Assembly: GCA_030019365.1 (NCBI GenBank)
Contig: JASEFA010000004.1
Span: 1-35,261 of the forward strand
Length of the DNA: 35,261 nucleotides
DNA from: Bacillota bacterium
Lineage (GTDB): Bacteria; Bacillota; Sulfobacillia; JACIYH01
Reading direction: 5' to 3'
This document shows, in pieces, positions 3,520-31,220 of the stretch (within the stretch, counting starts at the first letter, position 1; every line of letters begins with the position of its first letter). Below the pieces are notes generated by a model. It searched no databases. It was given only the letters and a program-made list of their open reading frames with translations, and was not told the DNA's origin. The position numbers were made by a program, and so were the translations under genes.

Positions 3520-4455
3520 GTGAAGACGCATGCAGCGGAGGTGGCCGCCCCGGTGGCGGGGGTAATCTTCGACATCATGAGGTATGCCATCCACGACGGG
3601 CCCGGAATTCGGACGGTGGTGTTTCTAAAGGGCTGTCCGATGAGTTGTTGGTGGTGCCATAACCCTGAAGGCCAGAGGCCTGGCCAGGAGATCATGTTGT
3701 GGGCGGGAAGGTGCATTGGTTGCGGCGAGTGCCTTAAGGTCTGCCGGCACGGAGCCATAATCAACCAGGGTGGTACCGTGCTGGCGGTTACCGAGAAGTG
3801 CACACTGTGTGGAGATTGCGTGACAGTTTGCCATGCCGGGGCGCGGACGATCGTGGGCAGGGAGGTCACTGCGGAGGAGGTCATGGCTGAGATCCGGAAG
3901 GACAGGGATTTCTACGAGGAATCGGGGGGCGGAGTAACCTTCTCAGGGGGTGAACCACTGGCACAGCCAGGTTTTCTAGAGCTTCTGCTGAAGAGGTGCA
4001 AAGAAGAAGAGTACCGCACGGCTGTCGAGACCACGGGGTTGGCCAAGCTGGAGGATCTTCTAAGGATAAGCGAGACGACCGACCTGTTCTTGTACGACCT
4101 GAAACTGATGGATGACAAAGAGCACAGGAAGTTCACGGGTACCTCCAACAGGGTGATACTCGACAACCTTAAGGCCTTATCACTCTATCACGAGAGCATC
4201 ATAGTACGAGTTCCCATTATACCTGGGGTGACTGACAGCGAACATAACCTCCTCAGGCTGGGCGAGTTCCTGTCAGGCTTGAGGAGCGTGAGAGAGGTGC
4301 ATTTGCTCCCGTATCACAGGCACGGCGCTGACAAGTACACGCGGCTGAGCAGGCGCTACAGTCTACCGGAAATGCGGCCGCCGGACGACGAAACGATGAA
4401 CAGGATTGCGGAGAGGCTGAAGGCTGCTCACAAGAGGATCAAGATCGGGGGGTAG
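3520..4455 (+). CDS. Glycyl radical enzyme activating enzyme (radical SAM, HypE/PflA-like)
   Basis: Uses S-adenosylmethionine and a [4Fe-4S] cluster to abstract a hydrogen from the glycine of the partner enzyme encoded next, arming it. The radical-SAM motif C-x3-C-x2-C is C39, C43, C46 (GCPMSCWWC). Two further four-cysteine ferredoxin clusters follow at C65/C68/C71/C75 and C94/C97/C100/C104; such an insert marks the activases of dehydratase- and decarboxylase-type glycyl radical enzymes and is absent from classical PflA. The SAM-binding GGE motif is in VTFSGGEPL, and YDLKLMD near residue 195 is typical. Start is the GTG at 3520, two bases after the permease stop. The stop at 4455 is eight bases before the enzyme gene. 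Pairing and reaction are firm; the name HypE depends on the partner being HypD. Confidence 0.93.
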   Translation: MKTHAAEVAAPVAGVIFDIMRYAIHDGPGIRTVVFLKGCPMSCWWCHNPEGQRPGQEIMLWAGRCIGCGECLKVCRHGAIINQGGTVLAVTEKCTLCGDCVTVCHAGARTIVGREVTAEEVMAEIRKDRDFYEESGGGVTFSGGEPLAQPGFLELLLKRCKEEEYRTAVETTGLAKLEDLLRISETTDLFLYDLKLMDDKEHRKFTGTSNRVILDNLKALSLYHESIIVRVPIIPGVTDSEHNLLRLGEFLSGLRSVREVHLLPYHRHGADKYTRLSRRYSLPEMRPPDDETMNRIAERLKAAHKRIKIGG

Positions 4456-4463
4456 GCCTGATC

Positions 4464-14341: not shown

Positions 14342-16567
14342 GTGAGCCGGAAGAGTTCAATTGTGCGGTGGCTGCTGATTGGGGGCCTGGCGTGCTGGGC
14401 AGGCCTTTTTTCTGCGTTGGCTGGCCCGCAGCGGGTTCTGGCTGGCGCCGTGCCGACGCAGGCAATGGAAATCAGGTTCACCATCGGGGAGAGGCGGTAT
14501 TTCGTTAACAGTGGAGAGCGGCTCATGGATGCCTCGCCGTTCGTCAAAGAAGACCGGACCTATGTGCCGGTTAGATATCTGGCTGAGCCTATGGGTGCTC
14601 TGGTGGAATGGGAGGGTACCCTGCAGCGTGTCACTCTTACGTTTCCTGGCAAGAGGGTGGAGCTTTTCATAGGCAGGCCCGTCGTGGTGGTGAATGGCGA
14701 AGAAAAGCCCATCCCGGTGGCCCCCCTGCTGAAGGAGGGCCGAACCTACCTGCCGGCAAGGTTTGTGGCCGAGGCGTTCGGGTACAAGGTGGATTGGGAA
14801 CCCCGTACGCACACCGTTGTCATCTCAAGGGCGGACTGGGCCAACCCATACAGCCTCTGGGTTTTCGATCAACCACCGCTCGAGTACCTGAAGGAGGTGG
14901 GCGCCACTGGTACGGCCTGGTCGGTGTTCTTTTGGGGCCGCAATCCTGAAGATGAAGCTTACGTCCGGCAGCTCCATGGGGCTGGTTACCGCGTGCTCTC
15001 CAACCTCCCCAGTGACCAAGGCCCACAGTGGCTCAGCGAGGAAGGCTGGAAGGGACTTGACCCAGCGCTCATCGAGGCGGGAGCCTGCCGGAGAAACGAT
15101 GGTTCTATCGTCTATTTCGACCTCGGCAGCGACAGAATAAGGTCTGCCTACATGGATCATAACAGCCCCGCCTGGCAAAACTACCTCGAGACCATGGTCA
15201 GGGAGCACATCGAGGGCGGCGCCGATGGCATCCTGATCGACGGGCTGCAGGGGCCGGCGGTAAGCGTTTTCTACGGGGGCAATTTCTCCCGGGATACCAT
15301 GGCCGGTTTCAGAGATCATCTGGCCCGGAAATTCTCTCCGGACGTCCTCATGGCCAAATTCGGCATTGGCGACATCAACGACTTCGATTACGGGCGTTAC
15401 CTAGCTGCCAAAGGGATCAAGTCCGCCTATGACGACCCCAACCCCGAGCTTCTCCAGGAGTATCTCCGTTTCATGTACGCCAGCCGCATCTCGTATCTCC
15501 AAAGACTGGTGGGGCAGGCCAAAGAGCAGGCAGGACCCAACCTGATGATCGCGGGCAACGCCTACCAGTTCGGCCCGAGCTACCAACCCATCCTGCCCCT
15601 CCTCGACCTCGTCGTCTCCGAGCTGCCCATGGGGACTTTACCGGAGGGAAAGCAGGCCGGCTTGTATCTTCTGGCCAAGTCCATCATCGGTCCCAAGCCT
15701 ATGGTCGGGTTCCCGGATATTTACACCCTGGCAACCCTCTCCCCTCAAGACTACGGCCTGTGGCGTCACTGGCTGGCGGAAGCCCTCTCCTGCGGGGGGA
15801 CCTTTATGGTGCCTCACAACGCCTTCACCATGGGCGGGGGCAGTTTCACCTTGCCGGCCGGAGAAATCGCCCCGTACACGCGTTTCTTGCGGGCGCACCC
15901 GGAGGTGTACACGGCGGAGGCCAAGAGTTTGGCCAGGGTGGCCGTGCTCTACGATCTGGGCTCGACCCTGTTTGACTGGAATGCCTGGCAAAGCTACCTG
16001 GACTTGACAAAGGCGATGCAGGAGCAGCACGTCCCTTACGATGTGTTATTCCTCGGCGATGGTGAGTTGGCTGCTGGGGGGGTGTCGGGGGAGGATCTGC
16101 AGCGGTATTCGGCCGTGGTGGTTCCTCCACTGCACAAGTGCCTTGCTGCCGGAGAAAGCCTCCCGGCTTATGCGTCTTCCGGTGGAAAGATCCTGCGGGT
16201 ACAGCCCGGCACCATCGGCCAGGTCGGCCTGCTCTTGCGGCAGATGGGGGTTAACCCCGGGCTGGAGACCGATGCCCGGCCGTCCCTTGGCGTGTTCCCC
16301 TATGTTACACCCTGGGGCGGGGTTGTCCATCTCGTCAACTATGCCTACGACTATGCGCGACACGATTTTCAGCCCCAAACCAACATCACGCTGAAGGTGA
16401 TGGTGCCTGCTGGTGCGGATGTTTCGGGGATGACCCTGAAGCTGATGACCCCCGACGGGAAAGATGGACCAACGGAGACAGTCCTGCCCTGGAAGCTCGA
16501 GGGTGGCACGATTGCCTTCACGGTGCCGGAGGTGCGCTGTTACGCGGTAGTGGCGCTTGGAAGGTAG
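14342..16567 (+). CDS. Secreted stalk-domain protein with glycosidase-like barrel
   Basis: A 741-residue exported protein. Residues 1-35 form a signal peptide (KSSIVRWLLIGGLACWAGLF, likely cleaved after VLAGA). Residues 40-165 hold two copies of the copper-amine-oxidase N-terminal-type stalk domain: the pairs SPFVKEDRTYVPVRYLAE and PLLKEGRTYLPARFVAE, each ending in a VTLTF/VVIS strand. Residues 170 to about 530 resemble a TIM-barrel glycoside hydrolase (GATGTAWSVFFWG, IEGGADGILIDGLQG, NLMIAGNAYQFG, VSELPMG). The rest resembles a beta-galactosidase trimerisation-like domain (VAVLYDLGSTLFDWNAW, YSAVVVPPL) plus a beta-sandwich tail. The acidic residues at IDG and SELP would be catalytic candidates, unproven. 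The GTG at 14342 directly follows GGAGGTGGGGAGGA. The substrate is presumably a wall or environmental polysaccharide. Confidence 0.8.
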   Translation: MSRKSSIVRWLLIGGLACWAGLFSALAGPQRVLAGAVPTQAMEIRFTIGERRYFVNSGERLMDASPFVKEDRTYVPVRYLAEPMGALVEWEGTLQRVTLTFPGKRVELFIGRPVVVVNGEEKPIPVAPLLKEGRTYLPARFVAEAFGYKVDWEPRTHTVVISRADWANPYSLWVFDQPPLEYLKEVGATGTAWSVFFWGRNPEDEAYVRQLHGAGYRVLSNLPSDQGPQWLSEEGWKGLDPALIEAGACRRNDGSIVYFDLGSDRIRSAYMDHNSPAWQNYLETMVREHIEGGADGILIDGLQGPAVSVFYGGNFSRDTMAGFRDHLARKFSPDVLMAKFGIGDINDFDYGRYLAAKGIKSAYDDPNPELLQEYLRFMYASRISYLQRLVGQAKEQAGPNLMIAGNAYQFGPSYQPILPLLDLVVSELPMGTLPEGKQAGLYLLAKSIIGPKPMVGFPDIYTLATLSPQDYGLWRHWLAEALSCGGTFMVPHNAFTMGGGSFTLPAGEIAPYTRFLRAHPEVYTAEAKSLARVAVLYDLGSTLFDWNAWQSYLDLTKAMQEQHVPYDVLFLGDGELAAGGVSGEDLQRYSAVVVPPLHKCLAAGESLPAYASSGGKILRVQPGTIGQVGLLLRQMGVNPGLETDARPSLGVFPYVTPWGGVVHLVNYAYDYARHDFQPQTNITLKVMVPAGADVSGMTLKLMTPDGKDGPTETVLPWKLEGGTIAFTVPEVRCYAVVALGR

Positions 16568-19688: not shown

Positions 19689-21278
19689 GTGCTCCGGGTT
19701 GCGCTGGTAGTGGCGATGGTTGCCTGCGTTGCGACGGTCTGCTCGTCGTGCCTTAGTGGGTGCGGGCCCGGTCCGGCTACCGGCCGGGAGCCGCCAGGAG
19801 GCAGCGAGCTAGGCGGGGGTGGGGCGCCTGGGCCTGGGCAGGCGCCGGGAGCGGGAGGGGGAGGCGGAGTTCCCGCGCGTGAGTGGACGCCCGGGGAGTC
19901 AGGCGTCGTGGAGGTGCGCACGGAGGCGAACGTGGCCACGGCCGGACCGTTCCGGCAACTGCTTGGTCTGAAGTGGGTGAACGAGCGCGAGTTCCTGGCG
20001 CTGGCGCGGCACCAGGGGGGCGAGTCCATCCTCCGGTTTTCATCCCAGTCCGGAGGTGCCTGGGAGGGCCGCGCGGTCCTGACCCTCAAGGAGGGTGTCA
20101 CGCCGGAGCGTTTTTACATGTGGGCGCCCCTGGCAGGAGGCAAGTCGATCGTATTCACTTCGCTGCAGGACAGCGTGATGGGGCCTCTGTGGCGGTACGA
20201 CACGGAACCCTCCGGTGCGGATGGGCGCGGGTTGTACAAGGTGGCCGAGCGGGCAAATGCGGTGTTCCGGATGTCGCCGGACGGCACAAGGGCTGTCCTT
20301 TACGACAACGATGGCGCCAGCGTGATGGATTTCCGCTCCGGGCAAAGGCTCAGGTTCCCCGAAGTTCCCGCCTACGAGTTCCCCTTCGTGGGGATCGGAT
20401 CCAGCTGGTCCCCTGACAGTATTCACTACCTGTACCAGGTGGTCGAGGGCCAGGTGCAGCGGTGGTTCGGGGTGGTGAGGACGGATACGGGTGAGGCTGT
20501 GCGCAGGGTGGTCCCGGAGAAAGGGTGCGCGTTCGGGGCTGCCTGGTCGCCGGACGGGTCACGGGTGGCCTTCCTGGCCCTGGACGGCAAGGCTGATGCC
20601 TTTCTCGGTCCCGAGGATGAGCTGATTCCGCCTATCGCCCACAGGGTGGGAATCCTGGAGGTGAAGTCCGGCCGGGTGGAATACGTCAGCGTACCGGGGA
20701 AGCTGGTGTACGGCTTTCCGCTTTGGTCGCGTGGGGGTGACGCTTTGGCGTTCGGGGCGGGTACCGTGGAGGGTAACAGGAAGGGCGGTTTCAGTGTATC
20801 CTGCGAGGTGTATGTAGCCGAGGAGAGGGACGATAAGTGGATCGTCACCCGCGTTACCGGACCGGCCCAGGGGAACGGTGTGAAGCGTCCCCTGTCATGG
20901 GCTCCCGATGGTCGAGCCCTGGCGTTCTCCGCTCCTTGTCCTGATGATGAGTGCCTATTCTGGGTGGGTGTGACAAGGAAGACTGGTGGTGCCTGGTGCG
21001 CCCCGGTCATGCTCGGCGACGTCGACGAGGGGGTAGTCTGGCTTGGCAGTGACGCCCTTGCGGGGCGGGTTGTACTACCCGCCAGGGAGGCCCGTGCGGG
21101 TGAGATCCGGGTGTTTTCCCTCGATGGTGGGGTGGTCTCGGTCCTGGAGGCAGCGGGTGTCTTGCGTGCCGAGCTGGCCCTCTCGCCGGATGGCAGCTAC
21201 CTGGCCTATACTGTAGAGACCCATGCTCCGGATGGGTCGGCGAGCGCGACATCGCTTAGGATACGGCGTACCAGATAG
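19689..21278 (+). CDS. Beta-propeller lipoprotein (TolB/WD40-like repeats)
   Basis: A 529-residue lipoprotein. The GTG at 19689 is chosen because GAAGGGAGG lies eight bases upstream and gives a compact signal peptide (LRVALVVAMVACVATVCSSC) with the lipobox LSGC. A glycine/proline-rich linker to about residue 70 is followed by propeller blades marked by repeated S/W-S-P-D-G turns: FRMSPDGTRAVLYD, GSSWSPDSIHYLY, AAWSPDGSRVAFLALDG, LSWAPDGRALAFSAP and LALSPDGSYLAYTVE. Such PD40/WD40-like propellers usually bind peptides or act as scaffolds outside the membrane; no catalytic motif is seen. The gene overlaps the next by 56 bases and probably forms a unit with it and the DUF3048 gene. The role is unknown. 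Confidence 0.8.
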   Translation: MLRVALVVAMVACVATVCSSCLSGCGPGPATGREPPGGSELGGGGAPGPGQAPGAGGGGGVPAREWTPGESGVVEVRTEANVATAGPFRQLLGLKWVNEREFLALARHQGGESILRFSSQSGGAWEGRAVLTLKEGVTPERFYMWAPLAGGKSIVFTSLQDSVMGPLWRYDTEPSGADGRGLYKVAERANAVFRMSPDGTRAVLYDNDGASVMDFRSGQRLRFPEVPAYEFPFVGIGSSWSPDSIHYLYQVVEGQVQRWFGVVRTDTGEAVRRVVPEKGCAFGAAWSPDGSRVAFLALDGKADAFLGPEDELIPPIAHRVGILEVKSGRVEYVSVPGKLVYGFPLWSRGGDALAFGAGTVEGNRKGGFSVSCEVYVAEERDDKWIVTRVTGPAQGNGVKRPLSWAPDGRALAFSAPCPDDECLFWVGVTRKTGGAWCAPVMLGDVDEGVVWLGSDALAGRVVLPAREARAGEIRVFSLDGGVVSVLEAAGVLRAELALSPDGSYLAYTVETHAPDGSASATSLRIRRTR

Positions 21279-22770
21279 CAGAAGGTTTGCCATTCCCCTC
21301 TGGGCGGGGCACGGGTGCTGGTTCCCGGATCTGTGTTGCTTCGTGCTTTTCCTGGTAGCGGGCCTCGCGCTGGCGCTGGTTCTTTCCCCGCTCGGTGCCC
21401 GCCGGCTGGGAAGCCTGCAAGACCGTCGGGTGGGCTGCATTCTTGCCCTTTTCCTGGCCACGTTCTCCCTTGGCGTGGGCGTCGCGCTCGCACGTGCGTA
21501 TCAAGCGCGGCCACCTGCCCCCGCCGGTCCGCGGCCGGAGGTCCTCTGGTCCCGGACGCCGTGGGAGGGGCTGTGGGCGTACCTGGCACCCCGTCCCTGG
21601 GCTCATGCCGGCTTCGCCCCGGCGGACCCGGCCGTGGATGGCGATGTGGTGGTATTCCTGGGCACGCCGGGGCAAGCGGACATCCTGGATTCCCGCGATG
21701 GAACGAGGATCTGGTCCGCCGCGGTGGAGCCTCCCCTGCGCCCGTTGCGGTCCGACACGGCCAGGAACATGTGGACGAGGCCCGTGGTTTCCGGCCGTCA
21801 CGCCCTCCTGCGGCCGCAGGTAGGCACCCCGTTGCTGATCCTCGACTCGGGCTCCAGGAGGGTCCACCGGGTCGACCTCGGTGAGCCCGCGGTAGAGGTT
21901 CTCCCGGCCGAGGGCGGGGGGTTCTTCGTGCTCACCCCGGATCGGCTTTGTCTGCTGGATGGGAGAGGCGCGGTGGTATGGTCATACAGGCCGCAGGGGC
22001 CCGGTGCTCCCGAGGAGGAGATGGCAAGATTCTCGGTGAACGAGTTTTCGCCGCCCGGGCTTCAACGCCGTCTTGTGAGCACGCCCGCCGGGCTGGTGGG
22101 CATGAGTTCTGACTGGCTGTGCCTGTGCGACCCGCAAACAGGGGAAGCGAGGTGGCTCAAGTTCCCGAGGGGACGGTTCGCCGGCATGCAGGTTTCTCCT
22201 TCCGGGGACGTCGTTTACGTTGCCGAGGCCGGCTCGCAGGGACGGCGGATCATCGCGTATGACTCAAACGGTGCCCCGATGTGGTTCCGGGAGCTCCCTG
22301 CGGAGTGTTATGGCATGGTGTGGTCGGCAGCCCCGGACGGCCTCCTGGTCTGGGTGACGTTGCCGGGAGCAGGCGCCGCCGAGTACATAGGGCGGGACGG
22401 TCGGACCAGGTACCGGCTTCCCGTTCCGGAACGGGATCCCGTGACCGTACGGTACCTCGGGGGTGTGTTCCTCGTAGCGAGCCACAACGGGGTGAGTGCC
22501 TACCGGGCAGCCGATGGGCACCACCTGTGGACTATCACGGAGCCGCCGGGTTCCCGCTTGCCGGGGGGCTACCTCTACTACCTCGACTGGGCGGTGGTCG
22601 GGGCGGACCTCGTCATCCCACGCGCGGCGGGGCTCAGTGCGCACGACCTCCTGACCGGCTCCCTCAGGTGGGTGTACACGCCGCCGGGGGGTTTCTTTGG
22701 TATGGCAGCCGCGTCCGACGCGGTGTACGTCACCTCTGGCAGAGGGCTGTTCGCCTTGCGCTGCCGGTGA
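21223..22770 (+). CDS. Membrane-anchored PQQ-type beta-propeller protein (BamB-like fold)
   Basis: A protein of up to 515 residues. Two membrane segments lie near residues 38-57 (CCFVLFLVAGLALALVLSPL) and 70-92 (VGCILALFLATFSLGVGVAL). An extracytoplasmic eight-bladed-type propeller follows, built of repeats with D/S-x-x-x-G-x-x-x-W: ILDSRDGTRIWSAAVEPP, LLDGRGAVVWSYRPQ, LCDPQTGEARWLKFP, AYDSNGAPMWFRELP, AYRAADGHHLWTITEPP and AHDLLTGSLRWVYTPPGG. These match the PQQ/BamB repeat. No cofactor site or enzyme motif is evident. The start is uncertain: the ATG at 21223 overlaps the previous gene by 56 bases and has a poor ribosome-binding site; GTG 21343 would remove part of the first helix. It is probably translated by coupling. 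Confidence 0.75.
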   Translation: MLRMGRRARHRLGYGVPDSRRFAIPLWAGHGCWFPDLCCFVLFLVAGLALALVLSPLGARRLGSLQDRRVGCILALFLATFSLGVGVALARAYQARPPAPAGPRPEVLWSRTPWEGLWAYLAPRPWAHAGFAPADPAVDGDVVVFLGTPGQADILDSRDGTRIWSAAVEPPLRPLRSDTARNMWTRPVVSGRHALLRPQVGTPLLILDSGSRRVHRVDLGEPAVEVLPAEGGGFFVLTPDRLCLLDGRGAVVWSYRPQGPGAPEEEMARFSVNEFSPPGLQRRLVSTPAGLVGMSSDWLCLCDPQTGEARWLKFPRGRFAGMQVSPSGDVVYVAEAGSQGRRIIAYDSNGAPMWFRELPAECYGMVWSAAPDGLLVWVTLPGAGAAEYIGRDGRTRYRLPVPERDPVTVRYLGGVFLVASHNGVSAYRAADGHHLWTITEPPGSRLPGGYLYYLDWAVVGADLVIPRAAGLSAHDLLTGSLRWVYTPPGGFFGMAAASDAVYVTSGRGLFALRCR

Positions 22771-22896
22771 GGAAGGGCCTCTGGCAGTCTGCTCGGGGGA
22801 GGCCCGCGGTCCGGCGGCGAAGGGTGCCACCTGGTGGTGGTTCCCTGGCCTTCCCGGCGCCGGCCGCGGGCAATGAAGGTGTAGGGGTGATCTGCC

Positions 22897-23331
22897 TTGG
22901 GTTTCCTGGCACGAGGAACGCGGGCTACTGTGTGCCTTGCATTCCTTGCCGTCCTGCTTGCGGGCTGCTGGTGGTTAAGAGAGCAAGCGGCGGAAGCGCG
23001 CCCGCAGGCGGGTGAACTCGCATCCAGGGTGGCTGAACTGGAGGCGCAGTTGAGGTCCCTCAGGGAAGAACTGGCCGCCGAATGTTTGGGCCTGGTACCG
23101 GATGACGTCAACCTGAAGGAATATGCGGACCAACTGGAGCGGTCTGACGACGAGTTGCTCGAGTACTCGGTGCACGGGTATGAGATGATGGGCCGGGAGA
23201 ATGCGGCGGTATATGTGAGCTACCGGGCGAGGTACCGCTCAAGCGGCCAGGTTTCGAGCTGTAAGCGGGAGCCGTGGTCTTGCATAAAGGAGAACGGGGT
23301 GTGGAAGGTGAGGTGGCTGCCGTGGCAGTGA
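22897..23331 (+). CDS. Small coiled-coil lipoprotein
   Basis: A 144-residue exported protein starting at the TTG 22897 behind a GTAGGGGTGAT ribosome-binding site. The signal peptide (ATVCLAFLAVLLAGC) ends in a textbook lipobox LAGC at residues 21-24. Residues 36-62 form a heptad coiled coil (ELASRVAELEAQLRSLREEL). The remainder (residues 70-144) looks like a small alpha+beta domain with LLEYSVHGYEMMGRENAAVYV and a final WKVRWLPWQ strand, reminiscent of NTF2-like DUF4878 folds, though that is only an impression. Two cysteines (SSCKREPWSC) could form a disulfide. It sits 126 bases after the propeller gene on the same strand. Confidence 0.7.
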   Translation: MGFLARGTRATVCLAFLAVLLAGCWWLREQAAEARPQAGELASRVAELEAQLRSLREELAAECLGLVPDDVNLKEYADQLERSDDELLEYSVHGYEMMGRENAAVYVSYRARYRSSGQVSSCKREPWSCIKENGVWKVRWLPWQ

Positions 23332-23380
23332 CGGTGGAAGTCGGGCACGTCGACACGCCGGGACGGCCGGGAGGGATTTC

Positions 23381-24184
23381 ATGCGGCGCTGGAACACGTT
23401 TGCCGCCCACGTGCTGTTGATGCTTGCGGCGGGAGGGCTGGCTGTCCTCACGCTGGGGTTGCCGGTGGTTGTTTCGGCCGACCAGGCGAGCCTGGCATCG
23501 GTGTGCCTGGGGTGGCCGGTGTGGTTTGTGGTCCAGGACCAGAGCCAGTACACGCCGCCCGGAGAGCGATGGCGGACGCATTTCCTCTCCCCCTGGGAGT
23601 GTCCGTTCCAGGTGGTGTGGTGGCGCTTTCTGGTGTCGTGGGCGGCCGTGGCAGGCCTTCTCGAGATGGCGTGGCGCGCGGCAGTGTGGTGTGCCGGTGG
23701 CGGGCGGGGGGTGGCCGTGTGTGAGCGTGGGGAGGCTGGGGCTGTGGCGGGGCGGCGCAAAGGGATGTCTCGCTGGTACCTTGCCCTCGGCAGGGTTGCT
23801 GATTGCGGGTCTTTCGCGGGCTGGGATGGTGCTGCGGGACGGCAACTTGTTGACGGATTTGGGGTTTACCGTAGAAGAGGTGAAGGAGGGGGAGGAAGCG
23901 GGGGGAAGGTTTACGCGGCGGATGGGTTTGTGATCGAGGTGTATGGCAAGACGTACGAGAGGGCGGGGCGGGTTTGGGACCCGGATGGGGGGCGCTGGGT
24001 GCGGGGGTACAAAGTGGTGATCCTTTTGAACCTGGAAGAGGGCAGGGAGCGAATTGTGGGGGTAGCGATGGGGCCGGTGGGGACGGATGAGAGGGTGCTT
24101 CTTTGCGAGATTTTGGATGCCCTTTCTGAGCGGGTATGCTCTGTGCGGGAGATGTGCCCAAGCGGCGGATTTATGCTGCCATGA
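23381..24184 (+). CDS. Membrane protein reading frame with chimeric C-terminus
   Basis: The ATG at 23381 follows GGGAGGG and opens a genuine-looking small membrane protein: two hydrophobic segments (HVLLMLAAGGLAVLTLGLPV near residue 10 and WWRFLVSWAAVAGLLEMAW near 80) flanking a conserved-looking loop with WFVVQDQSQYTPP and THFLSPWECPFQ. Beyond about residue 110 the frame turns into low-complexity glycine/arginine sequence, and then into KVYAADGFVIEVYGKTYERA and DPDGGRWVRGYKVVILLN, which seems to belong to a different gene. The natural product is probably about 110 residues and its original 3' end has been lost by a frameshift or insertion. The function is unknown. Confidence 0.5.
   Translation: MRRWNTFAAHVLLMLAAGGLAVLTLGLPVVVSADQASLASVCLGWPVWFVVQDQSQYTPPGERWRTHFLSPWECPFQVVWWRFLVSWAAVAGLLEMAWRAAVWCAGGGRGVAVCERGEAGAVAGRRKGMSRWYLALGRVADCGSFAGWDGAAGRQLVDGFGVYRRRGEGGGGSGGKVYAADGFVIEVYGKTYERAGRVWDPDGGRWVRGYKVVILLNLEEGRERIVGVAMGPVGTDERVLLCEILDALSERVCSVREMCPSGGFMLP
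23721..24184 (+). pseudogene. Possible frameshifted DDE-transposase fragment
   Basis: A GTG at 23721 opens another plus frame (LPSAGLLIAGLSRAGMVLRD, GNLLTDLGFTVEEVKEGEEA, GGRFTRRMG) that stops near 23933. The sense continues after a frame change as FVIEVYGKTYERAGRVWDPD, GYKVVILLNLEEG, IVGVAMGPVGTDERVLLCEI. The second part resembles the strand-helix order around the middle aspartate of IS4-like DDE transposases, with a TDER motif, but the catalytic triad cannot be assigned. This is a weak call; it could equally be a decayed host gene. Confidence 0.3.
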
Positions 24185-24327
24185 CGGGACGCCAGTACGG
24201 AGCACTGATCGCTGCCATGGCTGAGCGCCGGGGGAGAGAGCAGGCGCTGCCCAGACTCGAACATTTCCTGGAGGAGGGGGTGCCGGTCAAGGAAGCGATT
24301 GAGCGGGTGAAGCGAAACCTCAACTGA
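24181..24327 (+). CDS. Possible 48-residue helical protein
   Basis: An ATG at 24181 overlaps the preceding stop by four bases (ATGA) and opens MTGRQYGALIAAMAERRGRE, continuing through LEHFLEEGVPVKEAIERVKR. It is charged and helical throughout, with no ribosome-binding site other than coupling. It may be an independent small gene or the end of the decayed gene before it. No family is recognised. Confidence 0.3.
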   Translation: MTGRQYGALIAAMAERRGREQALPRLEHFLEEGVPVKEAIERVKRNLN

Positions 24328-24433
24328 ACCAGAGGGGATTCCCTGGCCGACGCGTTGCCTCTGGCCTGATCCTCTGGCCACCTGCCCCGTTTTCTGGGGC
24401 TACTTTCGATACCTCTGGTTTTTGCAGGAGGGC

Positions 24434-24462
24434 TTGCCAACTGTTTGAGCGGGTGGTAGTAT
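24434..24462 (+). promoter_or_regulatory. Sigma-A-like promoter for the PocR-HD-GYP gene
   Basis: TTGCCA (24434-24439) and TAGTAT (24457-24462) are separated by exactly 17 bases. Transcription would start near 24469, giving a leader of about 140 bases. The upstream stretch 24328-24433 contains three CCTCTGG heptamers (24357, 24372 and 24412 approximately) and one inverse copy CCAGAGG near 24331. Confidence 0.6.
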
Positions 24463-24543
24463 AAGGCGGCTGCGTTACCGGCACTGGCTCCCGGGGCTGT
24501 GGGTGCTCCGGGTGTTTGGGTTTGAGGGATAGAGCGGCTGATG

Positions 24544-24572
24544 GAGGACGGCAGGAGCTGTCCTCTTTGTTT
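24544..24572 (+). terminator. Terminator-like hairpin inside the leader (possible attenuator)
   Basis: GAGGACGGC (24544-24552) pairs with GCTGTCCTC (24557-24565) with one G-T wobble around the loop AGGA, followed by TTTGTTT (24566-24572). It lies downstream of the promoter and 36 bases before the chosen start, so readthrough must be allowed for expression. GCTCC at 24487-24491 and 24505-24509 could pair with GGAGC (24554-24558) in the loop and right arm, as an antiterminator would. No known riboswitch core is recognised. Confidence 0.6.
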
Positions 24573-24607
24573 GCGTGACCGCAGCGTGGCGGGGGGAGGT
24601 TTTTTTG

Positions 24608-26026
24608 TTGCCGGGTGGGTTGGACGTGTGGGAGGATGAGGTTTTGCGGGTTGTAGAGGCGGTGCACCGAGGACTTGAGGAGGCAGTGGGAGTACCGCTG
24701 CTCCTTGTGGACAGGCAGGGCAACGAAGTGGTGGGTACGGACCGCCTGCCCGAGCCGTGCCGTCTTTTGAGGAGCTGTACTGCTGGCGGCGGAGGCTGCC
24801 GGGAGTTCCTTGAGGGGCTGTCGTCGTACGTGGCGGGTTCGTTCAGGGAGGCCGCAGCCTACCGCTGTCCGGCGGGGGTTTTGTGCGCGGCGTGTGCCGT
24901 GGAGGTCAGCGGGCGGGCGCTCTGGGTGCTGGTTGGGCTGGGCGACCGGATTGGGATGCCGGCGGGGGGTGGTCTTGCGGTGAGGGCGGGGCGCCTCGTG
25001 CGGGCCGTGCGGGCGGTAGCGGGGGTAGCGGGTGCGGTGGCCAGGCTGGTGCTGTCCTCTGCGGTGCTGAGGCAGGCAGCGGTGGTTTCTGTTTCGGCGG
25101 ATGCCGGCCTGGGGGTTGAGGCGACGTGCAGGCGCTTCGTGGAGGCGCTGGTGAACGAAGGGGGAGCAACCGGGGCAGCGGTGGTGAAGGTCTCCAACGG
25201 GGGTAGGCTGGTGGAGGTAGCCGCAAAAGGCGGGAGTGGGAGGCTTGCGCTGCGGGTGGCCCGCGCATCCCTCGATGGAAGGGAGCCGGTGCTTGCCGAG
25301 GAAGGTGGCTGCAGGGGGGCTGGGGTTCTCGTGCGGGTACGTGGCCGCCGGTTCGGGCTGGGCGTTGCCGTCCCGGCCGATGGAGTGGTGGAAGCTGCGA
25401 GGACGGCGTTTTCACTGGGAAAGGTGTTCGAGCTGGCCGTGGCCAACGCGGTGCTGCACGAGTCTGCCCGGAGCGCGCATGAGGGCACGGTCAGAGCGCT
25501 GGTGGCTGCTGTGGAAGCGCGGGACGTGTACACGCGAGGTCACTCCTTGCGGGTGGCGTCTCTGGCCAGGAAGTTGGCTGGCAGGCTGCAGGGGAACGTG
25601 GACTCGAAGGACGTCTACCTGGCCGGGCTGCTGCACGACGTGGGGAAGATAGGGTGGCCGGAATGGGTGCTGAGCAAGCCGGGGCAGCTGTCTCCGGAAG
25701 AGCGGGAGATGGTGCAGGGACATCCGGTCGTGGGAGCTGCGATCCTGAAGCGGGGCGGGTTGAGGCGGGCGGTCCTGCGTGCAGTCCGGCACCACCACGA
25801 AAACTGGGACGGCAGTGGGTACCCGGACGGCCTGAGGGGCCGGGAGATCCCTATGGCGGCGCGGCTGATCAGGGTTGCAGACGCGTACGACGCCATGTGT
25901 TCGGAGAGGCCGTACCGTCCGGCGCTGGCACGTGAGGCCGCCCTTCTCGAGCTGCGGAAGGGTGCGGGAAGGGAGTTTGATCCAGCTCTGGTGGCGGTGT
26001 TTGAGCGGGTGATGGGCGGCGGCTAG
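24608..26026 (+). CDS. PocR-GAF-HD-GYP protein, cyclic-di-GMP phosphodiesterase
   Basis: A cytoplasmic signalling protein of about 472 residues. The N-terminal PocR-type sensory domain (residues 10-130) has the cysteine-rich pattern PEPCRLLRSC, GGGCREF, YRCPAGVLCAACAVEV, which may bind a metal, cluster or small ligand. A GAF-like region covers roughly 170-280. The HD-GYP domain follows: GHSLRVASLA, LLHDVGKIGWPEWVLSKPG (HD near residue 343), the HP/H pair in QGHPVVGAAIL, RHHHENWDGSGYPDGLRG near 394 and RVADAYDAM. All metal ligands of an active HD-GYP are present, so it should hydrolyse cyclic-di-GMP. The TTG at 24608 is chosen for its GGGGGGAGG eight bases upstream; GTG 24575 is an upstream option that would overlap the leader hairpin region. 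Confidence 0.88.
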   Translation: MPGGLDVWEDEVLRVVEAVHRGLEEAVGVPLLLVDRQGNEVVGTDRLPEPCRLLRSCTAGGGGCREFLEGLSSYVAGSFREAAAYRCPAGVLCAACAVEVSGRALWVLVGLGDRIGMPAGGGLAVRAGRLVRAVRAVAGVAGAVARLVLSSAVLRQAAVVSVSADAGLGVEATCRRFVEALVNEGGATGAAVVKVSNGGRLVEVAAKGGSGRLALRVARASLDGREPVLAEEGGCRGAGVLVRVRGRRFGLGVAVPADGVVEAARTAFSLGKVFELAVANAVLHESARSAHEGTVRALVAAVEARDVYTRGHSLRVASLARKLAGRLQGNVDSKDVYLAGLLHDVGKIGWPEWVLSKPGQLSPEEREMVQGHPVVGAAILKRGGLRRAVLRAVRHHHENWDGSGYPDGLRGREIPMAARLIRVADAYDAMCSERPYRPALAREAALLELRKGAGREFDPALVAVFERVMGGG

Positions 26027-26464
26027 CGCCGAGGAGGGTGGCGCCGCATGCTGCCTCAGCGAGACCGACGGCGGGGTACAGGGCGTGCACCCAGGAAAAG
26101 CTGATCCACCACGCCTGTAAGGAGATCCACAGTGCGGCGGGCTGCGGTGCCGAGGGGCTGGGGGTTTTCAACGCAGGTACGGCCTCAGGTTCGCCGGGCA
26201 AGGGGGTGGGCCGGTTGGGCTGCCCGGAGACGCCAAACCCACCACCCGCCCTTCCGGGGCAACGCGGGTTCAAACCCAAACCCTTAGCCTCCTGGTTGAA
26301 CCACGTGAATTACAGGGTTCAGTAGCTTCTTTGCTGCGCCTTACCCACAGCGGGGGTTGGGGTCGGAGAGGCCCGGCCACTCCCTCAGGCTGCACCACCT
26401 TGCGGTTAACTCCCGCAGCTCGGCAGGATTCTTTTCCTTGCGGCCTCCGAGCCGCCGGGCAGTC
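26027..26464. other. Stretch without an intact gene before the HicB-like remnant
   Basis: No supportable gene in 26027-26464. A GGGTTCAAACCC at 26268-26279 looks like a tRNA T-arm, but the stem does not pair and no cloverleaf can be drawn. The minus strand from 26340 to 26464 may hold the broken 3' end of the HicB-like gene or of a partner toxin, but no HicA motif is recognised. Confidence 0.45.
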
Positions 26465-26611
26465 CTGGTCATGGTCGAAGTGGCACCGGACCGCGTCGCG
26501 CACGGCTTCCTTGAGTTCTGCGAGGGAGTCCGCCTCGGTGAAGATTGAGTAGCCAAGCGCACGCGCCTGGTAGCCGCCCTCGGGGGATACGCGGCCAAAA
26601 ACGGGGACACC
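26465..26611 (-). pseudogene. HicB-like antitoxin remnant
   Basis: A 49-codon minus-strand segment reads VPVFGRVSPEGGYQARALGYS, then IFTEADSLAELKEAVRDAV and RCHFDHDQ. This is the partial RNase-H-like fold of HicB-family (UPF0150) proteins, with the usual PEGGYxARALG strand pair, the TEADSLxEL helix start and the RDAVRCHF end. A normal member begins about five residues earlier at an ATG and continues with an IRLHFVRDE-type strand; here neither is visible, the sequence after the final glutamine losing the pattern. No ribosome-binding site is seen. It is therefore taken as a broken copy; the partner HicA is not recognisable next to it. Confidence 0.55.
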
Positions 26612-26707
26612 TCCGCCGCGTTGCGGAACGATGGCGGCGCTTTGCCTGCCTCCGGAGGGGTATAGGGCGTCCGGGCCGCCACCCGATATTTGAAGCGGAA
26701 AGGGTGG

Positions 26708-27358
26708 GTGGTGGCCGTGGATATACAGGAGCTGTACAGGCTGCACCTGGAGACCGGTTCGGGCGCGAGGGTGGAGGTGAGCAGCCGGGGTGGGGTGTGG
26801 GAAGGAAGGTGGGTGGTTTCGGATGGCGACTTCCAGGTATCCCTGGCGGCGGAACCGGCGGGCAACGCCGGCGAGAGCAGGGTGCCCGACCTGTTCCGGG
26901 CCGACCTGCGGGTGCATCTTGGGACCGGCATTCACTCCTTCCCTGCCCGGCTGCGGCGCCTGAAGGGCACGGTGTGGAGGGTTTCCCTCGCCGGCCCGGT
27001 GAAGGTCATGCAGAAGCGCCGGGCTGTCCGGCTGCCCGTTGACCTAGAGGTGCTGTGCCGGACCCGCGGGGAGGAGAAGGTGAGGGCGAAGGACGTAAGC
27101 CCGGGTGGGATACTGCTCCAGGGAGCGGGCGAACTGAAGGTGGGGGAAGAGTTAGAGCTTGCGTTTGCTGAAAAGCCGTGGTCGGAGCTGGGCCCGGTCA
27201 AGGGCGCGGTGGTGTGGACGCAGCGTGCGGGGGACGGCTGGACCTGCGGTGTTGACTTCCGGGAGCTGAGCTGGCAGCAGGAGCGGTTGCTCGTACACCT
27301 GGTGGCCAGGGGGCTGGCGAGCCGGGCGGCCCGCCAGGCCCGGCAGGTCAAGCCGTGA
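26708..27358 (+). CDS. PilZ-domain cyclic-di-GMP receptor
   Basis: A cytoplasmic protein of about 216 residues. The N-terminal half (residues 1-95) matches the YcgR-like flagellar-brake fold loosely (VDIQELYRLHLETGSGARVE, LRVHLGTGIHSFPARLRRL). The PilZ domain begins with the binding motif QKRRAVRLPV (R-x3-R, near residue 105), followed by DVSPGGILLQG (D-x-S-x-x-G), so both cyclic-di-GMP contact motifs are intact. It ends with CGVDFRELSWQQERLLVHLV, typical of the domain. Starts GTG 26708, 26711 and 26717 all lie within reach of a GGAAAGGG site; a TTG at 26690 is also in frame. Its stop overlaps the convergent GGDEF gene by 11 bases. It probably translates the second-messenger level into motility or secretion control. 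Confidence 0.85.
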   Translation: MVAVDIQELYRLHLETGSGARVEVSSRGGVWEGRWVVSDGDFQVSLAAEPAGNAGESRVPDLFRADLRVHLGTGIHSFPARLRRLKGTVWRVSLAGPVKVMQKRRAVRLPVDLEVLCRTRGEEKVRAKDVSPGGILLQGAGELKVGEELELAFAEKPWSELGPVKGAVVWTQRAGDGWTCGVDFRELSWQQERLLVHLVARGLASRAARQARQVKP

Positions 27359-29657
27359 CGGCGAGGAACTTCCGGACCAGTTCCGGGTCGAACTGCAGGC
27401 CCGCCATTCGGTGGAGTTCGTCGAGCGCCTCCCGGGGGCTGAGGGCCACGGGGCGGTAGGGCCGGGGGTTGGTCATGGCGTCGTAGGCGTCGACGACGGC
27501 CAGTATGCGGCAGGGAAGCGGTATTGCCGGCCCCTTGAGGCCCGCCGGGTATCCGGTCCCGTCCCAGCGTTCGTGGTGGTGCAGTATGTACTCGGCGACG
27601 GGCGCCAGCTCCGGCGTGGCCCGGGCGATGCGGTAGCCTATCTCCACGTGCTGTTGCATCAGCCTGCGCTCTTTGGCGGACAACCGGCCCGGCTTGAGCA
27701 GTACCCTGTCCGGCACCCCGATCTTCCCTATGTCGTGGACCAGCGCGAGGGTGGCCAGCGCAGGCTTGCGTGACTCGCTGAGGCCGCATGCTTCCGCCAG
27801 GCGGACGGCCAGGTCTTTGAGGCGCCTCGTGTGCTCCTCGCTTTCCAGGTCGCGTTCGGCCAGGGCCGAGAGCAGCGCCCGCACGAGGTGCCCCGGGGCA
27901 CCCGACCCCGCGGCTGCCTTGCCGGTGTACATGGCGCGGTCCGCCGCCTTGAGGGCGTCTCCCAGGGGCTTGTCCGGCCACTCGGCCACGGCGGTGCCCA
28001 CCGCCAGGGAGAGGGGCAGGTCTTCTTCCCGGATCGAGCTGTTGTATTCCCCGATGGCCTCATGGATGCGGCGGACGATGGCCTCGCCCTTGGGCTCGCA
28101 TGTCCGGGGCAGGACGACGGCGAACTCGTCTCCCCCGATGCGCGCCACCAGGTCTCCCGGGCGGAAGCAGGCCCTGAGCACACCTGCCGCTGCCTGGAGC
28201 ACCTGGTCCCCGCGGTCGTGCCCCAGCCTGTCGTTGATGGATTTCAGGCCGTTCACGTCCGCCACCATGACGACCATGGGGTACTGGGAGGGGTCGTCCT
28301 TCCAGGTCTGCAACTGCTGGTCGAAGAAAGCCCGGTTGTAAAGGCCCGTCAGCGCGTCGTGCGTGCTCAGGAACTCCATCTTCGCCTCGGCCAGCTTGCG
28401 TTCTGTGACGTCCATCAGGGACCCCAGCAGGCAGGGGCGGCCGTTGAGCTCGGCGCGGGTCCCCAGCACCTCGCAGGTGATGATGGTCCCGTCCCTGCGC
28501 AGGCCCCGGAAGGTGTAGCGGATTGACCCGGTTTCCCCGGCCAGCGTGCGCCTGAAGTTCTCCGCCACCGTTTCGCGGTCGTCCGGGTGGGTGAGGTCGA
28601 GCGGGCCGAGGCGGTCTATGATTTCCTCCGGAAGGTAGCCGAAGGTCGATGCCAGCGCGGGGTTCACGTAGCGGAACAGACCATCCTGGACCAGGTAGAC
28701 GCCGACCAGGGTGTTTTCCGTCAGCAGGCGGTAGCGGGACTCCGATTCCCTGAGCTTTTGCTCGAGGGCCTTGCGTTCGGTCACGTCGATGACGATGCCC
28801 ATGATGTGGGAGGTCTCGTTGCGGGCGCCGCTCAGGGTGGCGGTGACTTCGCCCCAGAACGTGCGGTCGTCCCGCCGCCTGAAGAGGATTTCGTGGCCCC
28901 TGACGGAGCCTTCGGCGAGGATGCGGTCGAGGAAGGCCCTGCGGTCGTCGGGGTTGGCGTAAAGGTCTGGCCAGGTGACCTCTCCCAGTTCGCGCCTGCT
29001 GTGGAAGCCGAACATGGCCAAAAACGCCGGGTTGGCGTCGAGGAACTGGCCGGCCAGCATGCTCCGGTATATACCCGCGTTGATGTGGTCGAGCACTTCG
29101 CGGTAGCGGGCTTCTGATCGGGCGAGGGCGTCCTCGGCACGCCGGCGGCCGCTGCGTTCCTCAGCCAGGCTTTCCTCGTACGCCAGGCAGGCCAGTGCCG
29201 CGGTGTGCACCCTGGGGGCGAGCCCCTCGAGGACTCCTGCCAGGTCCCTGGCGGCCCCGGTGCGGGAGAAGACGAGCTGCAGGACCAGCAGCCTTCCTAC
29301 CGGGAACAGGAGAACCTCCTTTTCCTGGCCTGTCAGGTGGCCGCATGCGGCTTCGAATTCCGGGTCACCCTCAGCCTTCACGTCGGGCTGCCCCAGGGAG
29401 AGGACCTGGCGTACGGCACGCAGCGTGGCCTCCGGCGGGTGGGCCCTGTGCTGGCCCGGTCCGGCCGTCGCCGCCGGCTGCGGCTGCTTCCCCTCTCTGA
29501 GCAGCCAGGCTGTGCCCCGGTGAGCGCCCGATGCGCGGACCAGGGTCTTCAAGAGGTGCTCGAGCATCTGGTCGATGTCGAGGCTCTGCCCGATGGACAG
29601 GGCGATCTCGTAAGACAGCGAGAGGGCCCCCATGACCCTGACCAGGTCGGCGTCCAC
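27348..29657 (-). CDS. PAS-PAS-GGDEF-HD-GYP bifunctional cyclic-di-GMP enzyme
   Basis: A 769-residue signalling protein with both a synthase and a hydrolase domain. Order: GAF-like N-terminal sensor (1 to about 165), a short coiled linker (ERSGRRRAEDALARSEARY), PAS (about 183-300), PAS (about 305-425, each ending in the DVTERK motif), GGDEF (430-590) and HD-GYP (595-769). The active loop is RIGGDEFAVVLP with GGDEF at 508-512, and an inhibitory site R-P-G-D lies exactly five residues before it, so product feedback is likely. The HD-GYP part has LVHDIGKIGVPDRVLLKPG, the HHHERWDGTGYP motif and VVDAYDAM, all intact. No membrane segment. The GTG at 29657 lies three bases after the FIST stop, so the two genes are translationally coupled. 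The net output, synthesis or breakdown, cannot be told. Confidence 0.93.
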   Translation of the reverse strand: MDADLVRVMGALSLSYEIALSIGQSLDIDQMLEHLLKTLVRASGAHRGTAWLLREGKQPQPAATAGPGQHRAHPPEATLRAVRQVLSLGQPDVKAEGDPEFEAACGHLTGQEKEVLLFPVGRLLVLQLVFSRTGAARDLAGVLEGLAPRVHTAALACLAYEESLAEERSGRRRAEDALARSEARYREVLDHINAGIYRSMLAGQFLDANPAFLAMFGFHSRRELGEVTWPDLYANPDDRRAFLDRILAEGSVRGHEILFRRRDDRTFWGEVTATLSGARNETSHIMGIVIDVTERKALEQKLRESESRYRLLTENTLVGVYLVQDGLFRYVNPALASTFGYLPEEIIDRLGPLDLTHPDDRETVAENFRRTLAGETGSIRYTFRGLRRDGTIITCEVLGTRAELNGRPCLLGSLMDVTERKLAEAKMEFLSTHDALTGLYNRAFFDQQLQTWKDDPSQYPMVVMVADVNGLKSINDRLGHDRGDQVLQAAAGVLRACFRPGDLVARIGGDEFAVVLPRTCEPKGEAIVRRIHEAIGEYNSSIREEDLPLSLAVGTAVAEWPDKPLGDALKAADRAMYTGKAAAGSGAPGHLVRALLSALAERDLESEEHTRRLKDLAVRLAEACGLSESRKPALATLALVHDIGKIGVPDRVLLKPGRLSAKERRLMQQHVEIGYRIARATPELAPVAEYILHHHERWDGTGYPAGLKGPAIPLPCRILAVVDAYDAMTNPRPYRPVALSPREALDELHRMAGLQFDPELVRKFLAVTA

Positions 29658-29660
29658 CCT

Positions 29661-30752
29661 TCATGCCACCCCCACGACCGTGGTCTTGTTGTAAAACTCC
29701 ACGTAGCGGTCCCCCCGGGAGGCCACCTCTCCCAGGCTCAGGAACCCGAAGACGGGGATGCCAGGGGGAAGGGCGTCCCTTATGGCGCGGAGCTCGCGTT
29801 CCATGGCCTCTTCCAGGTACAGCACGCGGGAGATGCAGTCGATCACCAGCGCTGCCCTCGGCGGCGCGGCCGCGCGCCGGGCGTGGGCGAGGGTTGCCCG
29901 CCTGGCAGCCTCGCCCGCCGCTCTGACCAGATGATCGGGATCTCCCTTCATGAGCATCAGGACTGAGTTCTGGGGGACTTCGCCGACCAGGATCAGCGAG
30001 CCGTCTGGTTCGGTTCTGATGGGGTCCCTCACCACCACGCTGCCGTCAAGCCTGGCCATCCCCAGGGGAAAGCGCTTGGCGACGTCGAAGAAGTTGCCCT
30101 CGTGCAGGGTCTCTCCCGAGCAGCGCTCGATCGCCTGCCTGTACACCTCGAAAGCCGGTCTCCAGTTGAGCTCCTTCAGGCGGGTACCCTCGGCCCTGGT
30201 GGCGACGTAGGGTCCCTGGAATGCCTGCCAGCCGTGCTCGACCCCGACGGCCACGGTCTGGTCTGTGGCGGCCAGTATGGCTCCTCCGGCGAAGATGCCG
30301 TCGCGGGTGAACAGGCACGGTTCCCGGCGCAGGGTGAGCCTGCCTGCGCCGCCCCCGACGAACGTGGTCCCCGGGCCGCAGGAAGCGAACAGGCCGTGCA
30401 GGAAGTCGGATATATCGGCCGCCATGCCGTCGAGGAGGACGAGGAGCGTGGTGTTCTGCCCCTGCTCGAGCCGCGGTTCCCCCAGGCTACTGAACTGAAG
30501 AACGCGCACAGGGTCCGTGAACGCGCAGGCGACCGCCCCGCTCCTGTACCAGCGGTCGCCGAAGATGACCCCCGGGAAGACGCCTCCGAACACCTCGGCG
30601 TCGAGTTCCCGGAACAGAGGCGCCACCCGCTCGAACTCGAAGGGCGTCCCTTCAGCCACCATGACCATGATGCCCGGGGCGCCCCGGAACCCCGTCAGGA
30701 ACTCCTCCCAGTCCACGTCGGGCCCCGGGCGCATGGCGGCTTGGGCAAACAT
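29661..30752 (-). CDS. FIST-domain sensory protein
   Basis: A 363-residue cytoplasmic protein with FIST_N (residues about 30-200) and FIST_C (about 205-345) domains, thought to sense small ligands such as amino acids and found with signalling outputs. Marks: VFGGVFPGVIFGDRWYRSGA, LLVLLDGMAADISDFLHGLF, TTFVGGGAGRLTLRREPCLF, GGAILAATDQTVAVGVEHGW, YVATRAEGTRLKELNWRPAF, the VYRQAIE helix, and IPVFGFLSLGEVASRGDRYV with a closing NKTTVVGV strand. The ATG at 30752 follows AGGAAGGCGGTGG; the open frame extends upstream without coding character. It is followed after three bases by the GGDEF/HD-GYP gene, its likely output partner. Confidence 0.9.
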   Translation of the reverse strand: MFAQAAMRPGPDVDWEEFLTGFRGAPGIMVMVAEGTPFEFERVAPLFRELDAEVFGGVFPGVIFGDRWYRSGAVACAFTDPVRVLQFSSLGEPRLEQGQNTTLLVLLDGMAADISDFLHGLFASCGPGTTFVGGGAGRLTLRREPCLFTRDGIFAGGAILAATDQTVAVGVEHGWQAFQGPYVATRAEGTRLKELNWRPAFEVYRQAIERCSGETLHEGNFFDVAKRFPLGMARLDGSVVVRDPIRTEPDGSLILVGEVPQNSVLMLMKGDPDHLVRAAGEAARRATLAHARRAAAPPRAALVIDCISRVLYLEEAMERELRAIRDALPPGIPVFGFLSLGEVASRGDRYVEFYNKTTVVGVA

Positions 30753-31220
30753 GCAACCACCGCCTTCCTGCGTGTTCTCAGGTGCCCCGGGGCTGGAGGT
30801 ACACGTGAGAGTGGTTAGGGGTGGAAGTGCCTGTGTGTCCGGGGCCGTGTGCAGGTATGTCTGTCGCTTCCCTGGATCGTCGTGTCGTGTGCGCTTGCCA
30901 AGTGGTATTTTCGCCCATGGGGCTGCAGTTCCTGCGGGGTGTCTTTGTGCTTTGGGCACGCCGTACATGGTATGGCAGCTAGTTCTCCCGAACTCAGTTC
31001 TCCCCACCTGCTGACGCGTGGTTCTGGATGGCCTCCGAGTCGGGGAGATGTTCCCTTGCCAGTTCAACGCGCTTTCTGGCGAGGCCGGCCCCTACCCGGT
31101 ACTGGTGGTCCAGACCGCGACCCTTCCCGACCGTGGGCGGAACAGGGGTCCGCCAAGCGTGGTTAACGCCGTCGGCCAACGTCGGATAACAAAGGCGTGC
31201 TGCGTGGTTCCCGGACTTTG
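30753..31220. other. Intergenic stretch between the FIST operon and the DUF5615 toxin gene
   Basis: No intact gene. It should contain the promoter of the minus-strand FIST operon; I see no clear -35/-10 pair. The section 31010-31115 is related to 33500-33611 (see the repeat entries) and is probably gene debris. Confidence 0.5.
31010..31115 (-). repeat. Gene fragment A, related to 33500-33611
   Basis: On the minus strand this reads LDHQYRVGAGLARKRVELAREHLPDSEA before a stop near 30994. Fragment B at 33500-33611 reads RQEHLELVKKHFPDPDAAKS. The DNA matches at about six in ten positions over some 90 bases by eye, including GGACCACC, GAACTGG and CCCGAC. Both seem to be pieces of one unrecognised gene family. 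Confidence 0.45.

Follow-up and report, generated by a model that had tools for sequence, protein, structure and literature searches.

Riboswitch classes are usually widespread, and two described kinds of RNA attenuator, T-box leaders (RF00230) and c-di-GMP-I riboswitches (RF01051 / RF03167), are the closest systems to the leader reported here. Both are present in the same genome, that of an uncultured Bacillota lineage already using c-di-GMP-I riboswitches. Rfam searches gave 13 T-box matches, 2 of them above the Rfam cut-off, and five c-di-GMP-I matches; a lysine riboswitch and a SAM riboswitch were also found in the stretches scanned. Terminators at these leaders were located with our own scan and ranked by a d'Aubenton-Carafa-type terminator score, d, the values of which are relied on only in relation to each other. 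Six of the 12 T-box loci examined had a terminator with d 19.3-41.0, two had one of about -4 and four had none. Two of the five c-di-GMP-I leaders carried a terminator (d 12.0 and 23.8), in both cases separated from a start codon by a few tens of bases, and three carried none. The c-di-GMP-I riboswitches L178 (G000:C8:38129-38216) and L179 (C3:107899-107984) precede genes whose translated starts read like flagellar rod proteins, and at L178 the terminator stands immediately before the gene.

Extensive premature termination in 5' UTRs has been reported for E. coli (PMC7815308), most RNA-based regulators are described as poorly conserved between species (PMC10942264), and PocR is placed among the sensor domains preceding c-di-GMP phosphodiesterases and other output domains (PMC1592074).

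In this study, we describe the leader of a PocR/HD-GYP gene in a 35,261-nucleotide stretch of contig JASEFA010000004.1 (Bacillota bacterium, assembly GCA_030019365.1), the whole of which is referred to as the window. A literature search of partial coverage found no publications on this locus. The reading that we favour, with a probability of roughly 0.5, is that a premature intrinsic terminator (24543-24572) lies in the 5' leader of this gene, which would constitute attenuation in the broad sense. The features are as follows.

24434-24462, plus strand: sigma-70-type promoter-like site TTGCCA-17-TAGTAT, 9/12 consensus matches, TG before the -10
24469-24542, plus strand: putative leader of about 74-75 nt, one predicted hairpin domain with an 8-bp inner stem at 24490-24512
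24543-24566, plus strand: terminator-like hairpin, 9 bp and one outer G.U, loop AGGA, -16.8 kcal/mol
24566-24572, plus strand: T-rich tail TTTGTTT, as read in the sequence, with the T run broken by a G
24591-24599, plus strand: Shine-Dalgarno-like GGGGGGAGG, 8 nt upstream of the TTG at 24608
24608-26026, plus strand: PocR (partial) / HD-GYP protein, 472 aa, TTG start, HD_5 133.2 bits, PocR 27.6 bits

The first-pass annotation had proposed a TTGCCA-17-TAGTAT promoter and a leader of about 75 bases, followed by a 9-bp stem with a 4-base loop, TTTGTTT and a ribosome-binding site, and each of these elements was found where it had been placed. The promoter hexamers occupy 24434-24439 and 24457-24462 with a spacer of 17 nt, and TGG directly precedes the -10 hexamer. 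Scanning of both strands of 20000-30000 gave one promoter match against 0.6 +/- 0.8 in shuffles. Within the 280-nt gap alone, a match of this quality occurred in 1.7% of 5000 first-order shuffles, which places the promoter above local chance. Transcription from it would be expected to start at about 24469. Short frames were seen in the leader by eye (for example GTG at 24499 and ATG at 24541), with no convincing Shine-Dalgarno sequence. Upstream of the promoter, in poorly annotated DNA, 22804-23345 and 23810-24154 have second copies in the same genome, at C10:72087-72784 (88-93%) and C7:55030-55489 (78-82%).

The stem of the hairpin, GAGGACGGC / GCTGTCCTC at 24544-24565, has 9 bp including one G.U pair (-15.2 kcal/mol), and one further G.U pair widens it to 24543-24566. 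The hairpin with its T-rich tail scored d = 14.7, and an equally strong site arose in 25 of 2000 (1.25%) first-order shuffles of the 280-nt gap. In order to place this value, terminator-like sites were scanned on both strands of 800 kb of the same genome, taken as three contig stretches. At d>=15 there were 9 sites against 1.5 in shuffles and at d>=0 there were 23 against 6, while intergenic DNA only, at d>=14.6, gave 8 real sites against 1.2 shuffled. Since strong sites were enriched over shuffles and 12 of the 13 top-scoring ones lay outside predicted genes, intrinsic terminators appear to be used by this genome. The window hairpin ranked 10th, and the highest score belonged to C1:345379-345403, where a T-box leader ends. 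The window hairpin thus scores within the range of the known attenuator terminators of this genome. The elements stand in the order promoter, leader, hairpin, Shine-Dalgarno sequence and gene, and the hairpin equals in strength the known attenuator terminators of the genome; a predicted intrinsic terminator is found between a putative promoter and the start codon. Elsewhere in the window, a strong hairpin followed by TTTTTT (14384-14405, d 26.1) falls within the first codons of 14342-16567, which encodes a Cu_amine_oxidN1 protein; this hairpin is likely to be signal-peptide coding sequence, or the gene is likely to start further downstream.

With T-box leaders the window leader shares an intrinsic terminator in the 5' leader, but T-box matches span 98-337 nt, whereas about 75 nt precede the hairpin in the window and give no T-box match. 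In two of the five c-di-GMP-I leaders of the genome a hairpin of similar size and score stands just before the start codon, 109-130 nt past the aptamer start, and the c-di-GMP theme is common to these and to the window gene; in contrast, the window leader matches neither c-di-GMP-I nor any other Rfam family. Rfam searches of the leader, at gathering and at E<=10, returned no relevant family, c-di-GMP classes included, and a single irrelevant antisense match; a search of the window likewise gave no family matching the leader. No described aptamer of any Rfam class was thus recognised in it, in agreement with the earlier remark that no known riboswitch consensus fits.

Sites were counted as leader-position terminators if they had d>=0 and, by our own gene calls, lay 100 nt or more beyond the preceding gene and no more than 150 nt ahead of a same-strand start. 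Six such sites were present in the 800 kb: one belongs to a T-box, and five, including the window site, lie in stretches that gave no Rfam match at gathering. With 5/6 lacking a known sensor, orphan leader terminators are not rare in this genome. Examples are G000:C1:279957-279972 and C3:147822-147840, where a hairpin and T tail lie 24-127 nt upstream of a gene on the same strand and >100 nt after the preceding one, with no Rfam family at gathering. At present the window site belongs to a small set of leader terminators in a single genome that have no explanation, and its main use is as a Term-seq candidate. At G000:C1:279957-284336, four terminator-like hairpins (d 3.9-23.1) are clustered within 5 kb, and no Rfam family was found there.

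Homologues of the leader were sought at the DNA and RNA level. No credible relative of the leader DNA was found in 154 class genomes (its own, two congeners and 151 others). A match in G002:C120, with 77% identity over 61 columns across the hairpin and tail, was rejected; it lies within an open frame, which we take to be MobA-like, has no T tail, and the protein has no tblastn match to the window stretch. A further match in G095:C146 covered just 29 columns. An RNA model (R1), for which two copies of the one leader sequence served as input, was searched in 201 genomes and gave matches at E<=0.1 in 25 of them, its own included; self scored 173.1 bits, and the best other match reached 24.3 bits. 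Of the seven loci obtained outside self, six were examined and L105 was left out. Three lay inside open frames with the Pfam names ParB, HpcH/HpaI and PGI, a fourth (L104) overlapped a frame with a collagen-repeat match, and another (L102) came directly after a SpoVR gene; at L103 the neighbouring frame alone was scanned and had no Pfam name. The matches elsewhere were taken as chance or composition. A conserved, covarying leader, as would mark a new riboswitch class, was therefore not obtained, either among the 154 class genomes or with the RNA model in 201.

Another reading is that an ordinary 5' leader happens to contain a GC-rich stem, arisen by accident or of structural value only, or that the promoter match is accidental, with no useful polymerase stop. 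The overall fold of 24469-24607 was unexceptional (z -1.27, with 21 of 200 shuffles equally good), a G breaks the T run of the tail, nothing is conserved, and chance alone would give about 1.2 sites with such a score in the intergenic DNA of the 800 kb, where 8 were seen. We nevertheless regard an accidental stem as unlikely: score and position match those of the known attenuator terminators of the genome, and such a site has a local chance of 1.25%.

In the favoured reading, a premature terminator in the leader, the promoter at 24434-24462 would direct transcription from about 24469, and the polymerase would meet the terminator at 24543-24572 while still inside the 5' leader. Some polymerases would stop there, releasing a short leader RNA of about 100 nt, and others would read through into the PocR/HD-GYP gene. 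The terminator may either merely set low expression or have its read-through regulated by a factor not evident from the sequence. Promoter use, termination and expression of the gene via read-through are all inferred from the arrangement, and the element is judged to be an ordinary candidate attenuator, or the putative end of a short leader RNA.

In the 41 nt from the hairpin to the TTG start, the promoter scan found no sigma-70-like promoter, so that transcripts of the gene would have to pass the hairpin. The same layout could be read otherwise: the promoter and hairpin may bound a stand-alone small RNA of about 100 nt, or the hairpin may end transcription of upstream genes, the PocR gene in either case receiving unregulated leak-through only. 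Small RNAs, too, consist of a promoter, some 100 structured nucleotides and a terminator, and independent sRNAs from E. coli 5' UTRs are reported (PMC7815308); several same-strand open frames lie upstream, and 217 nt separate the end of the last one (24327) from the hairpin. We hold this alternative to be rather unlikely. A terminator of upstream genes would normally precede, not follow, the next promoter, the scan shows no second promoter from which the PocR gene could be read, and neither the leader DNA nor the R1 searches indicated conservation as an RNA gene.

The earlier annotation had further suggested that two GCTCC segments might pair with GGAGC in the terminator as an antiterminator, and that a leader under ligand control would act as a feedback device on this gene. 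The words are present, GCTCC at 24487 and 24505 and GGAGC at 24554, and the exact word GCTCC occurred twice in 0.4% of shuffled leaders, but the complementarity itself is at chance level: the two 5-mer complements between leader and hairpin were equalled or exceeded in 34% of shuffled leaders. When GCTCC and GGAGC were made to pair, the energy penalty was 20.3 or 22.7 kcal/mol at 37 C and 14-19 at 55-65 C, and the terminator stem had a probability near 1 at 37, 55 and 65 C. When the terminator was forbidden in folding, the hairpin bases stayed unpaired with the leader, and the leader-hairpin duplex energy was no better than that of shuffled leaders (p 0.45-0.63). The forbidden-terminator fold was likewise blank in each of ten positive controls (8 T-box and 2 c-di-GMP-I), and duplex energies failed to separate real T-box and c-di-GMP-I leaders from shuffles, so these tests do not discriminate. 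As they miss real attenuators, thermodynamics is not decisive against a switch, and the proposed antiterminator merely gains no support.

A new class of ligand-sensing riboswitch, in which GCTCC (24487 or 24505) pairs with GGAGC (24554) and gives feedback on c-di-GMP hydrolysis, is very improbable in our judgement. The layout alone and the use of c-di-GMP-I riboswitches elsewhere by the organism speak for it; against it stand the cost of forced pairing, the chance-level complementarity (by a duplex test that is weak), the lack of any Rfam family even at E<=10 and of homologues. Of the attenuator interpretation as first proposed, the order of elements and a hairpin as strong as those of known attenuators stood, whereas no ligand or protein sensor is indicated. 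With the antiterminator at chance, no sensor and no homologous leaders, a new ligand-controlled feedback device is unsupported rather than disproved, and ligand control and feedback of the PocR/HD-GYP gene are conjecture. It appears quite improbable that read-through is gated by a ligand or an RNA-binding protein that the sequence does not reveal, in an attenuator confined to this lineage, with synthesis of the c-di-GMP-degrading PocR protein limited to times when a metabolic signal is present. If termination were regulated, a metabolite-sensing c-di-GMP hydrolase would be coupled to control of its own synthesis.

The TTG start at 24608 was also picked by our own crude gene caller. The protein contains an HD-GYP domain, with the motifs LLHDVGKIG and HHHENWDGSGYP read in it alongside the HD_5 match, and an N-terminal PocR match at residues 21-104 that lies 3.7 bits over the cut-off of 23.9. 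This match spans only positions 13-95 of the 162 in the profile, indicating a partial or degenerate domain. Of 299 genomes, 99 gave PocR matches, and Pfam scans of two relatives showed both to be full PocR-GAF-HD-GYP proteins. Such proteins of related genomes (for example L142 and L137) share an N-terminal PocR and a C-terminal HD-GYP domain with the window protein, to which L142 aligns at 38% identity; they differ in a full PocR of 124-135 bits (window 27.6), a Pfam-recognised GAF and leaders without a comparable hairpin near the start. The N-terminal part of the window protein had no match in close-relative GTDB contigs, and its N-terminal half gave only itself and three weak PocR matches in 154 class genomes, with the same outcome over 151 genomes.

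For comparison of PocR/HD-GYP leaders, 20 regions were fetched, of which 18 leaders were usable (two near-identical copies came from G001). In 14 of the 18 no hairpin and T tail above d = -40 was found from 320 nt before to 240 nt into the open frame; for L154 the upstream DNA was shorter, its contig stretch beginning 139 nt before the open frame. The leaders of L137 and L138 reached d = -35 only. L146 and L151 did carry strong hairpins (36.8 and 32.2), yet these stand 173-225 nt upstream of the open frame and are more likely to be the ends of upstream genes. No element common to the window leader and those of the 18 relatives was found, nor any comparable hairpin near the start, and as far as can be seen the leader is restricted to this species.

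In the two congeners, G001 and G002, the PocR locus is absent, and the downstream block (window 26656-31104) is kept at 85-89% identity; a named record of this block is that of MAG Bacillota bacterium MAG-73 (JACIYH010000027.1). Within 26708-31067 the c-di-GMP genes are convergent, the end of a PilZ protein gene (plus strand) overlapping the end of a PAS-GGDEF-HD-GYP gene (minus strand). A FIST-domain gene adjoins this pair, and the block is conserved in both congeners. Between the PocR/HD-GYP gene and this block, a segment of about 130 bp (26456-26586) recurs at 97% in G001:C24:99316-99446 and at 93% in the same genome at C12:65250-65382, and on the minus strand it reads, in our own reading, like a HicB-type antitoxin fragment. 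Near the other end of the window, 3520-6824 encodes a trans-4-hydroxy-L-proline dehydratase (glycyl radical enzyme) over its cut-off and an activase-like gene below the cut-off of its family, with sugar-type ABC transporter genes alongside.
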